Of a DNA stretch of 64,000 nt, positions 32,385-35,507 are shown in pieces. Numbering within the stretch: position 1 is the first letter of the stretch; each line of letters begins with the position of its first letter. The translations under genes were made by a program, and so were the position numbers. Under the pieces are notes generated by a model, which saw nothing but the letters and a program-made list of their open reading frames with translations, was not told where the DNA came from and did not search any database. The DNA is taken from NCBI RefSeq assembly GCF_004102725.1, contig NZ_LHQS01000001.1, positions 787,327-851,326 of the forward strand, in the 5' to 3' direction. Source of the stretch: Methanoculleus taiwanensis. GTDB lineage: Archaea > Halobacteriota > Methanomicrobia > Methanomicrobiales > Methanoculleaceae.

Positions 32385-32699
32385 TCAGCGGTACATCCGC
32401 CGTGAGAGTCCGTCGACGATATCCTCCATATGAGCGACGGTGTTATCATATTTGGCGTTCATCGTCGTTGCCATCTCTTCGAGGTTTACCCGCATGGTGC
32501 GTTCTCGGTTGATGACATTCTGTTCGAGGCTGATGATCTTCATGCCGAGGGAGATGATCAACCCGCCGAGCGAGAGCATCATGAAGGTCGCCGCCACCGC
32601 AAGGATCAGATCCTGCCAGAACCGCATCACCAGAACGACGGTGGAGATCACCATCACGATGGTCAGAATAATGTCCGTGATGAGTTCACGAATATCCAT
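32385..32699 (-). CDS. Small membrane protein with coiled-coil tail
   Basis: 104 residues. Two membrane helices (IILTIVMVISTVVLVMRFW at ~9-27 and LILAVAATFMMLSLGGLIISLGM at ~31-53) are followed by a heptad-like helix (IISLEQNVINRERTMRVNLEEMATTMNAKYDNTV) pointing into the cytoplasm. The ATG lies 26-27 bases from the palindromic TTAATTAA TATA element it shares with the divergent protease gene, suggesting a leaderless mRNA. Function unknown. Confidence 0.65.
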   Translation of the reverse strand: MDIRELITDIILTIVMVISTVVLVMRFWQDLILAVAATFMMLSLGGLIISLGMKIISLEQNVINRERTMRVNLEEMATTMNAKYDNTVAHMEDIVDGLSRRMYR

Positions 32700-32717
32700 A
32701 CTTTTAGATGATGAAAA

Positions 32718-32732
32718 TGAATTAATTAACCT
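32718..32732. promoter_or_regulatory. Shared palindromic TATA element of a divergent pair
   Basis: TGAATTAATTAACC contains the perfect palindrome TTAATTAA (32722-32729). Its centre is about 26 bases from the minus-strand ATG (32699) and 31 bases from the plus-strand ATG (32757), so one TATA-like site can serve both directions. Confidence 0.5.
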
Positions 32733-32756
32733 ACCTATAAGTAACGGAGAAGTATG

Positions 32757-33668
32757 ATGCAGATACGTGACTGGTTACCGTTTATCGGGATGCCCCTGAT
32801 GCTCCTGTTTGTTCAGTTGATCGCAATAGTACTCTCCATCCCCATGCAGGAGGCAGGGCTTGCGGCTTTCGAGGATCCGACCTCGGTAACAAATCCCCTG
32901 ATATTCATCGGCATGCTGCTTGCGTTTACGCTCGTTCTTTTAATCCTCATAAAAAAGGGGGGGAAACGCATCATCGGTCTCTTTATCGCGTTCTCGATAT
33001 TTCTGACCTTCACCTATATCTTCGGGGCGCTCGGCCTGTGGTTTTTCGGCATCTCGGATGTTGCGGCGGTGGCGACGCTGCTCCTTGCCGGCGGAGCGAC
33101 GGCGCTCCTCTACCTCTACCCCGAGTGGTACGTCATCGACGTCCTCGGGGTGCTGATATCGGCCGGTATCGCCTCCATCTTCGGGATATCGCTCGCGGTT
33201 CTGCCGGTGCTGGTGCTCCTCGTCCTGCTTGCCGTATACGATGCGATCTCGGTCTACAAGACTAAGCACATGATAACGCTCGCCGAAGGCGTTCTTGAGA
33301 TGAAGACACCGATCCTCGTCGTCGTCCCGAAGAGGAGGGACTATTCGTTCCGAAAGGAGGGTCTTGATATCGGAAAGGATAAAGGAGAGCGGGGAGCGTT
33401 CGTCATGGGAATGGGAGATCTGATCATGCCCTCCATCCTCGTGGTCTCCTCGTATGTCTTCGTCGCCGCGCCGCCGGTTGTCTGGGTGCTCTCCCTTCCG
33501 ACGCTCGGCGCGATGATAGGATCGCTTGCGGGCCTCGCGGTGCTGCTCTTCTTCGTCAACCAGGGGAAACCGCAGGCAGGCCTTCCCCCGCTGAACGGGG
33601 GAGCCATCGCCGGTTTTATTCTTGGATGTATTCTGGCGGGGACACTTTCGGCGTGCTTCGGTGTTTGA
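32757..33668 (+). CDS. Presenilin-family intramembrane aspartyl protease homologue
   Basis: 303 residues from the second ATG (32757); GGAG lies seven bases before it, and only four before the ATG at 32754. Nine membrane helices are expected. The catalytic aspartates are Asp162 (LAVYDAISVY, the YD motif) and Asp221 (GMGDLIMP, the GxGD motif), and the ninth helix has the PPLNGG form of the PAL motif. From memory it is very close to the Methanoculleus marisnigri JR1 presenilin homologue solved by crystallography, whose aspartates are 162 and 220. It cleaves membrane-embedded peptides; natural archaeal substrates are unknown. Its 3' end overlaps the convergent GTPase gene by 53 bases. Confidence 0.95.
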   Translation: MQIRDWLPFIGMPLMLLFVQLIAIVLSIPMQEAGLAAFEDPTSVTNPLIFIGMLLAFTLVLLILIKKGGKRIIGLFIAFSIFLTFTYIFGALGLWFFGISDVAAVATLLLAGGATALLYLYPEWYVIDVLGVLISAGIASIFGISLAVLPVLVLLVLLAVYDAISVYKTKHMITLAEGVLEMKTPILVVVPKRRDYSFRKEGLDIGKDKGERGAFVMGMGDLIMPSILVVSSYVFVAAPPVVWVLSLPTLGAMIGSLAGLAVLLFFVNQGKPQAGLPPLNGGAIAGFILGCILAGTLSACFGV

Positions 33669-34590
33669 GCAGGGCTTCGAGCACCTCCTCGACTCCCTCA
33701 CCGGTCACGGTGGACATGGTCGGGTATCCCTCAACCTTCAGGATATCGGCCTTGTTCACGACGGCGATGACCGGCACATCCACCATGCCGCCGACCTCGT
33801 CGAGGAGCGCTTTCTGATCCTCGATCGAGTAGCCGCACTGTTCGCTTGCGTCCAGGACGAAGAGGACGGCGTCGGCGACGTTGACGAGAGCGCTCACTGC
33901 CTGCTGCTCGATCTGGTTCCGCTCGGCGGCGGGGCGCTCGAGCACGCCGGGGGTATCGATGAGCTGCATCCTATCCCGGTTCCCGAGTATCCGGTGGCCG
34001 ACGATGATCCCCTTCGTGGTGAAGGGGTATGCGGCGACCTCGGGTTCTGCGGAGGAGATGAGCCTGATGAACGATGATTTTCCTACGTTCGGGTATCCGG
34101 CGACGACCACCGTGAACTCCTCCTCGGTGACGTGGGGGATCTTCCGGAGGATGTTCCTCGCTTCATTGAGGAACAATAGATCGTCCTCGACCTGGTGAAC
34201 GATCGAGGCGATCCGCGCAACCGCCTGCCTTCGCACCTGCCCCGTATCCAGAGCAGGACGCATGGCGCGTGCATGCTGGGTTCCAACGGTGCGCACCTGT
34301 TCGCCTGCCCATGTAACGGCGCCGAGTGACTTTTTCAGGTGGTCGACGCTGAAGAGAATGTCCGCAATGTCGCGATAGAAGGGGGGGAGACGATCGAAGG
34401 TCGGGAACGATCTGACAACGGTGTCGAGTTTGTCGTGGACGGCGCTTGCTACCGATCTGACAAACTCTTCGTTCGCCTTGTCTTTATTGGTCTTCAGTTT
34501 CTTTTTTGCCGCTGCCCGGCGGAAACTGCGGTCGAGTATCTCTTCCGCAGTGGGTACGGTCGGTATTGTTTCAAACTCCACGCAATGCAC
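33616..34590 (-). CDS. NOG1-like GTP-binding protein
   Basis: 324 residues, GTG start at 34590. The N-terminal helical region (1-~160) with LPPFYRDIADILFSVDHLKKSLG is the NOG1 N domain. The GTPase has G1 GYPNVGKSS, G2 YPFTTKGI, G3 DTPG and G4 NKAD. NOG1/Nog-type GTPases assist large-subunit ribosome assembly. The C-terminal NOG1 extension of eukaryotes is absent, as in other archaea. It is divergent from the HTH-CBS regulator with only 38 bases between start codons, and convergent with the protease gene, overlapping its end by 53 bases. Confidence 0.93.
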   Translation of the reverse strand: MHCVEFETIPTVPTAEEILDRSFRRAAAKKKLKTNKDKANEEFVRSVASAVHDKLDTVVRSFPTFDRLPPFYRDIADILFSVDHLKKSLGAVTWAGEQVRTVGTQHARAMRPALDTGQVRRQAVARIASIVHQVEDDLLFLNEARNILRKIPHVTEEEFTVVVAGYPNVGKSSFIRLISSAEPEVAAYPFTTKGIIVGHRILGNRDRMQLIDTPGVLERPAAERNQIEQQAVSALVNVADAVLFVLDASEQCGYSIEDQKALLDEVGGMVDVPVIAVVNKADILKVEGYPTMSTVTGEGVEEVLEALLKHRSTPKVSPPEYIQE

Positions 34591-34597
34591 AACCTAA

Positions 34598-34620
34598 TGT
34601 ATTTAATTACGTAATATAAC
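34598..34620. promoter_or_regulatory. Divergent promoter with a 10-base palindrome
   Basis: TGTATTTAATTACGTAATATAAC contains ATTACGTAAT, a perfect palindrome (34606-34615), flanked by a TATA box for each strand. Each box is ~26 bases from its start codon (34590 and 34629), so both mRNAs would be leaderless. The palindrome is a candidate operator for the adjacent HTH regulator. Confidence 0.55.
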
Positions 34621-34628
34621 TGATAATT

Positions 34629-35507
34629 ATGGATTTATCCCTCATTCAGAAAGATATCCTGATAACTCTCATTACTCTATATCATCAGTCGTCTCACTCT
34701 ATAAAAGGTGAGGAGATCGCGGAGGTTCTCAAGCGAAATCCCGGGACTGTTCGCAATCAGATGCAAGCATTAAAAGCGCTCGGCCTCGTCGAAGGGGTGC
34801 CCGGGCCGAAGGGGGGATATACCCCGACCGCCATGGCGTACCGGGAGCTCAACCTCGTCAACTACGAGCACCAGTCAGATGTGCCGATCTCTCGCGGCGG
34901 GGAGACGGTGCGGGGAGTGCGGGTTGCCGAACTCGATTTTACGACGCTCTGCCACCCCGACCTCTGCCACGCGGTCGTGAAGATCATCGGGAGCGTGAAA
35001 CACTTCAAGGTCGGCGACCTCATCACCATCGGCCCGACGCCCGTCAATAAACTGCTCGTCCGGGGCGAGGTATATGGTATGGATGAGAACCTGCCGGCGC
35101 TTCTGATCAGCATATCCGAGATGATCTCGCTGCCAAAGCAGCCCATCAAGACGTTTATGAGCACGCCGCTTCTTACGCTTTCCCACGACGAGACGTTCTC
35201 CGACGCGATACGCCTCTTCAACGCGCACCATATCCATGGAGCACCGGTCATGAACGGTGCCGATCTTGCGGGCATCGTTACGATAAGCGATATCATCCGG
35301 GGACTTGACGAAGGGATGGCGATGGATACGGCCGTTACGGCGGTGATGACGACCGATGTGGTGAAGGCGCCATCGAACATCCGGATATTCGAGCTCGTAG
35401 GCCGGTTCAAGGAACGTGAGATAGGGCGGCTGATCGTCATGGAGGACGGCAGACCCGTGGGTATCGTCACTCAGTCAGACATCATCCGGGTGTTTCCCTC
35501 ACTTTGA
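34629..35507 (+). CDS. HTH regulator with CBS-domain pair
   Basis: 292 residues. A winged-helix DNA-binding domain (1-~70: SIKGEEIAEVLKRNPGTVRNQMQALKALGLVEGVPGPKGGYTPT) is followed by a ligand/regulatory region (~75-165) and two CBS motifs at the C terminus (FMSTPLLTLSHDETFSDAIRLF and VMTTDVVKAPSNIRIFELVGRF), which usually bind adenine nucleotides. It is likely a transcription regulator sensing energy charge. The divergent promoter with a palindrome directly before it is consistent with autoregulation and control of the NOG1 gene. The ATG is 26 bases from a TATTTAAT box. Confidence 0.9.
   Translation: MDLSLIQKDILITLITLYHQSSHSIKGEEIAEVLKRNPGTVRNQMQALKALGLVEGVPGPKGGYTPTAMAYRELNLVNYEHQSDVPISRGGETVRGVRVAELDFTTLCHPDLCHAVVKIIGSVKHFKVGDLITIGPTPVNKLLVRGEVYGMDENLPALLISISEMISLPKQPIKTFMSTPLLTLSHDETFSDAIRLFNAHHIHGAPVMNGADLAGIVTISDIIRGLDEGMAMDTAVTAVMTTDVVKAPSNIRIFELVGRFKEREIGRLIVMEDGRPVGIVTQSDIIRVFPSL

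Follow-up and report, generated by a model that had tools for sequence, protein, structure and literature searches.

A conserved element at the start of a winged-helix/CBS regulator gene divergent from NOG1 in Methanoculleus taiwanensis: a candidate autoregulatory operator

The genome of Methanoculleus taiwanensis carries, in divergent orientation, genes for the GTPase NOG1 and for a 292-aa regulator with an HrcA-type winged helix and a CBS pair, and the question raised by this arrangement is through which sequence in the short intervening spacer the regulator might act, and on which of the two genes. The initial annotation of this locus proposed that a perfect palindrome, ATTACGTAAT, is an operator at which the regulator acts on its own gene and on NOG1 together, in response to adenylate binding by the CBS pair. 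The gene identities given there are borne out by the detection of NOG1 domains in the one product and of an HTH domain and a CBS pair in the other. Self-control of the regulator is likewise plausible, but through an adjoining conserved element (34616 to 34628) and not through the palindrome. We propose, with a probability of roughly 0.55, that this element is an autoregulatory operator of an uncharacterized HTH/beta-barrel/CBS regulator, situated in a promoter region which is shared with NOG1. The features under discussion are collected in Table 1, in which coordinates refer to the window, i.e., the whole 64-kb stretch of DNA that was analyzed.

Table 1. Coordinates of features in and around the spacer between the regulator gene and NOG1
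Feature	Position	Strand	Remarks
NOG1 GTPase gene, conserved start	33616..34581	-	alternative start at the in-frame GTG 34590 upstream; based on domains and conservation
BRE/TATA of the regulator (CCTAATGTATTTAAT)	34593..34607	+	promoter matrix; conserved across Methanomicrobiales
Palindrome ATTACGTAAT	34606..34615		judged chance; 1/188 loci
Weak TATA-like sequence (TTATATTA)	34611..34618	- (NOG1 strand)	not conserved
Proposed operator (ATAACTGATAATT)	34616..34628	+	positional homolog of ATGATTAATCATT of relatives; abuts the ATG
Regulator gene	34629..35507	+	winged helix 1-76, beta domain 84-166, CBS pair 170-288; PF03444, PF00571
Middle domain of the regulator	34878..35126	+	predicted six-stranded beta domain; no Pfam family

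The open reading frames are divergent, and the start codons originally assigned to them, a GTG at 34590 and an ATG at 34629, were both confirmed, with 38 bases in between; the NOG1 start that is kept among relatives, however, is the in-frame GTG at 34581 (GTGGAGTTTGAA), which widens the gap to 47. The NOG1 protein of relatives starts with V/M-E-F-E at the position matching this codon, and ATG, GTG, or TTG occupies the equivalent position in 76 of 79 distinct spacers (CTG in the other 3), in a register derived from the alignment. An in-frame start codon matching 34590, three codons upstream, is present in all 27 distinct spacers of family f1 and in 8 of the 52 others. On this comparative evidence GTG 34581 is the more likely start of NOG1, and 34590 could still serve as such in family f1, since the upstream codon is present in every f1 spacer.

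Judging from its distribution among genomes, the compact divergent NOG1/regulator pair is old. The regulator was detected in all 61 genomes of a first search, and NOG1 is divergent from it in each of the 60 loci examined, G053 having been left out because its regulator match starts at residue 81, cut by a contig end. The gap measures 44 to 53 bp in 58 of these loci, 332 bp in L013, and 458 bp in L059. Both genes lie less than 60 bp apart in 106 Methanomicrobiales loci, which, after the merging of identical spacers, represent 79 distinct spacers with gaps of 43 to 55 bp, 72 of them at 44 to 49 bp. A rough count returned 5 of 74 divergent gaps of no more than 50 bp, obtained with a crude gene finder which also misplaced the regulator start. 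Across a sample of the phylum which included Methanomicrobiales, 165 of 196 genomes produced a regulator match at an E value of 1e-30, and 40 loci, followed by 12 more, were fetched from genomes with such a match outside this order. Within the sequence retrieved, NOG1 is divergent, upstream, and at larger gaps in 18 of those 40 loci, which indicates that the pair is older than Methanomicrobiales and that its tight packing is a trait of that order.

Several further features of the neighborhood were recorded. The enlarged gaps of L013 and L059 contain inserted sequence which is partly common to both and includes new TATA-like sequences, and part of this insert is repeated elsewhere in genome G030 (17 matches in total). 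In the window, a gene for a presenilin-type protease (PSH, NF041679) and a 104-aa ORF flank NOG1 (32385 to 33668); the protease gene and the 104-aa ORF are found directly upstream of the regulator in L082 and L083, as is the protease in L150, NOG1 being absent from that place in all three.

The palindrome on which the original proposal was built does exist, is perfect, and is flanked by two TATA-like boxes, and the regulator possesses a CBS pair. The palindrome is not, however, conserved in relatives: within 120 bp before the regulator, ATTACGTAAT occurs in 1 of 188 loci, that of the window itself (these loci are not independent genomes, as some, e.g., L002 and L111, derive from the same genome). 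The same-genus relative L002 carries ATACCGTAAT at this position even though its HTH domain is identical up to residue 72, and at least four of five pairs are retained at the palindrome center in 3 of 104 loci. The window contains a single copy, even when one mismatch is allowed (0.39 expected), and the genome one more, in a different context. Perfect 10-bp palindromes arise in 15% of dinucleotide-preserving and 10% of mononucleotide shuffles of the AT-rich 47-bp spacer, and, when 46 AT-rich spans of 47 bp, some of them overlapping, were taken from the window, 12 contained one. Given its presence in one locus and the frequency of such palindromes in shuffled spacers, ATTACGTAAT was rejected as an operator; it is probably a product of chance, and a role in the adenylate-responsive control of both genes is very improbable.

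Of the two TATA boxes that had been placed in the spacer, the first, at 34600 to 34607 with its center 25.5 bp before the ATG, has good support from a promoter matrix for which 273 upstream regions, drawn from 464 kb of this genome, served as the training set, whereas the second, on the NOG1 strand, is weak and not conserved, scoring 5.6 in L001 and L002 only and weakly in most loci. Across loci, the best matrix site for the regulator has its TATA center at -28 to -22, with mean scores of 7.6 in f1 and 7.0 in the others; on the NOG1 strand, the means for positions -38 to -32 are 2.7 and 2.3. In genes sampled from the same genome, TATA boxes peak at approximately -33 to -25 and Shine-Dalgarno sequences at -15 to -9, from which it follows that leaderless and leadered genes both occur. 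The spacing between TATA box and ATG suggests that the regulator mRNA is likely leaderless or nearly so, and the notion of a compact divergent promoter with a (near-)leaderless regulator transcript is, its NOG1 part aside, supported by spacing and conservation.

The same spacing is open to a different interpretation, namely, that one symmetric TATA box in a bidirectional BRE-TATA-BRE arrangement serves both genes, with mRNAs starting at or near the start codons, in which case the fixed spacing would be kept for the box and the conserved element would represent promoter context. The distance from first base to first base is 48 here and 46 to 50 in most relatives, and the bidirectional BRE-TATA-BRE promoters described for Pyrococcus furiosus have opposite starts 49 to 50 bp apart around one TATA (PMC6640164). 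The box is nearly symmetric in f1 (TATTTAAA), where its NOG1-strand score averages 4.7 (5.1 outside f1), and within that family a single bidirectional TATA, which fits the 48-bp start-to-start distance, is a serious rival. Outside f1, however, the box lies only approximately 17 to 23 bp from the NOG1 start, too close for a transcript to begin at the GTG or ahead of it; in most loci the NOG1-strand score falls short of the 95% level obtained with shuffled spacers (7.2), and this interpretation leaves the element in loci without an adjoining NOG1 unexplained. As a general account of the spacer, it is considered somewhat unlikely.

The operator favored here is the sequence located between the regulator TATA and ATG, which reads ATGATTAATCATT in many relatives and has diverged to ATAACTGATAATT in this genome. 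In 23 loci outside f1, alignment columns -23 to -15 are near random, whereas those from approximately -14 to -1 are conserved. The element takes different forms by lineage (ATGATTAATCAT, ATGATCAATCAT, ATGATCGATCAT, ATGATAAACCAT, and ACGGTTTATCGT, with CTGAACAATCAG in L058), while the form common in f1 is ATGACTGATAATT, and L003 (ATGACTGATCAT) and L028 (ATGACAGATCAT) harbor intermediates between the f1 form and the core. The site of M. taiwanensis matches the core at 9 of 12 positions, a level attained 19 times in the window against 12 expected; this similarity is by itself not significant, and it is position, together with the L003 and L028 intermediates, that underlies the proposed link of ATAACTGATAATT to the core.

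Many relatives present the element as an inverted repeat, ATGATNNATCAT, with the core TTAATCATTAT. At a symmetry center of -7.5, taken from an earlier scan of centers, 33 of 52 distinct non-f1 sites possess at least four of six complementary pairs, compared to 5.9% at other centers. The pair at -12 and -3 is T-A in 29 of these 52 sites and C-G in 8, the C-G cases being mostly from one lineage, and the excess of symmetry over that expected from column composition is small (0.59 versus 0.56). The inverted-repeat symmetry of the element, as judged from these alignments, is supported but not strong.

Whether the element belongs to the regulator or to NOG1 can be judged from loci in which the two genes are separated. 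Outside the order, the core ATTAATCATTAT is exact at -25 or -26 in 4 of the 40 loci (families f11, f16, and f19), and it is matched at 10 of 12 positions at -22 in the f7 locus L081. All 12 further loci of families f7, f11, f16, and f19 carry this core at -22 to -26 (5 exact, 2 with 11/12, and 5 with 10/12), which speaks to persistence within families and not to new families, as the 12 are relatives of the loci where the core was first noticed; the five f7 matches are individually weak, being reached by 25 to 40 of 500 shuffles. In f19 and f11 the element is near the regulator start and NOG1 is approximately 100 bp or more away. The regulator of f16 is preceded by a presenilin-type protease gene in the same direction, and a search of two f16 genomes for NOG1 gave no match at an E value of 1e-15.

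Within Methanomicrobiales, the element palindrome is kept by three of seven regulators that have become detached from NOG1: L150, in which NOG1 is on another contig (6/6 pairs), L151, in which it is approximately 2.7 kb away (6/6 pairs), and L110, in which it is approximately 290 bp away (5/6 pairs). The element is not clearly kept by the remaining four (L013, L059, L138, and L153). The reciprocal inspection, by eye, of the 110 bp before displaced NOG1 genes revealed no copy of the element in L013, L059, L110, L153, L191, and L192, and a half-like sequence, ATGATTAA, in L138. The regulator is accompanied at its promoter by a conserved site linked to the gene, as would be anticipated for autoregulation, with the exceptions of f4, Methanosarcinaceae, Archaeoglobi, and the four detached regulators; in the first three of these groups (f4 comprising Methanofollis-like spacers) the element is not recognizable. 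Methanosarcina loci (L071, L161, and others) contain a different inverted repeat, GATGTATA-N5-TATACATC, approximately 35 to 55 bp before the regulator, which may be the operator in that genus.

These separations also bear on the view that the element is simply the core promoter (TATA/BRE) of NOG1, which would have a leader of approximately 10 to 20 nt, and is unrelated to the regulator protein. NOG1-strand matrix scores over the element reach 5.0 in f1 (-48 to -42) and 3.7 in the others (-43 to -37), and where L013 and L059 carry insertions, the AACC adjoining NOG1 (AGGTT on the NOG1 strand) remains on the side of that gene. Such a promoter would not, however, be expected to stay in L150, L151, and f16, in which NOG1 lies at another place or gave no match, nor to lie close to the regulator in f19 and f11 at its distance from NOG1, and this view is regarded as unlikely.

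The proposed operator of the regulator was also sought beyond this locus. The f1 form ACTGATAATTATGG, with at most one mismatch, is present as one copy per genome in eight f1 genomes, always at the regulator start. A search of 11 genomes with ATGATNNATCATT listed 25 matches, some sites being counted on both strands, and among those listed the regulator start is the sole context seen recurring; the reversed control for this pattern is biased, as it contains TAG words. Exact matches to TTAATCATTAT in 22 genomes were not clearly above the reversed-pattern control. No second conserved target emerged from these genome motif searches, and no regulon is apparent by ATGATNNATCATT or TTAATCATTAT, a type of search which degenerate sites would escape.

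The regulator itself belongs to the class combining an HrcA-type winged helix with a CBS pair, as assigned by domain scores which satisfy curated cut-offs (PF03444, 122.3 bits against 21; PF00571, 92.5 against 24), and its full-length model has a pLDDT of 85.8. Mean identity to 38 relatives is 0.73 for the HTH domain, 0.55 for the middle domain, and 0.39 for the CBS pair, and RNPGT[VI]RNQMQ in the HTH domain is nearly invariant. Both CBS motifs exhibit a T-x-x-D pattern, which is typical of nucleotide binders. Matches in haloarchaeal relatives span residues 2 to approximately 174 only; given this and the low conservation of the CBS pair, adenylate sensing by that pair is less likely to be the heart of the system. 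The proteins of L098 to L102, from haloarchaeal genomes, apparently consist of the HTH and middle domains without a CBS pair.

The middle domain, modeled in isolation (residues 76 to 170), is predicted as a six-stranded beta fold with a pLDDT of 85.3. It has no Pfam match and no Foldseek match at an E value of 0.001, and in VIA-align flavin reductases and PilZ domains share the best Z score, 7.7, a level which is common according to the tool; CBS proteins only are among the 50 whole-protein Foldseek matches listed. This domain, which could be the sensor, is better conserved than the CBS pair, and GPTPVN and a single cysteine are invariant within it. Searches of the open-access literature turned up no experimental study of these regulators, and the titles listed on Methanoculleus transcript starts and on NOG1 in connection with CBS proteins yielded nothing that bears on the locus.

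Taken as a mechanism, the proposal envisages two promoters within one 47-bp spacer. The regulator would be transcribed from the BRE/TATA approximately 26 bp before its ATG, yielding, from this spacing, a leaderless or near-leaderless mRNA, and the conserved element, located between TATA and ATG, would coincide with the presumed point of transcript initiation. The regulator, which is probably a dimer, would bind the element via its nearly invariant winged helix and thereby block RNA polymerase at its own start, i.e., exert negative autoregulation. Given the shortness of the spacer in Methanomicrobiales, the bound regulator would also reach the NOG1 promoter, being positioned on or just upstream of it, and may dampen NOG1. 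Such dampening would seem to be a side effect of the tight packing, not a conserved function: as the element is kept by some regulators without an adjoining NOG1 and none was seen before displaced NOG1 genes, joint control is a possible outcome of overlapping geometry which conservation does not support. A broader scenario, which we consider doubtful, would have a Halobacteriota-wide regulator with a near-invariant DNA-recognizing head and a single operator of deep conservation (core TTAATCATTAT) that captured the NOG1 promoter in Methanomicrobiales, such that one binding event sets the levels of both products, with the signal entering via the undescribed beta domain, either in place of the CBS pair or in addition to it. 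The conserved element offers a specific and inexpensive target for binding work, and the loci in which NOG1 and the regulator have come apart naturally offer a means of telling whether the regulator controls itself or, jointly, a methanogen gene for ribosome assembly as well.

Among known systems, CcpN of Bacillus has targets which differ from those considered here. Like the present protein, it is a transcription regulator in which the CBS pair comes after an HTH domain (NF053704; CBS structure 3fv6); the present protein differs by its extra beta domain. Assignment of the regulator as CcpN was rejected, its score of 20.7 bits being far below the equivalog cut-off of 260 (NF053704). The P. furiosus arrangement may resemble the present one in that the start codons are 48 bp apart here, a distance between codons and not between mapped transcript starts; it differs in that it is described mostly for antisense RNA, whereas two protein genes are involved here. 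MsvR of Methanothermobacter and Methanosarcina is of another protein family, with V4R as its sensor, and recognizes other boxes. The MsvR box, TTCGTAN4TACGAA, does not occur in this spacer. The shared trait is an inverted repeat at the own promoter of a methanogen regulator, bound by MsvR in experiments (PMC3729527) and proposed here from sequence comparison. The MsvR gene is divergent in one lineage, where MsvR regulates overlapping promoters, and in another MsvR regulates only its own promoter at the locus (PMC3729527); MsvR is the best precedent for the mechanism proposed here.
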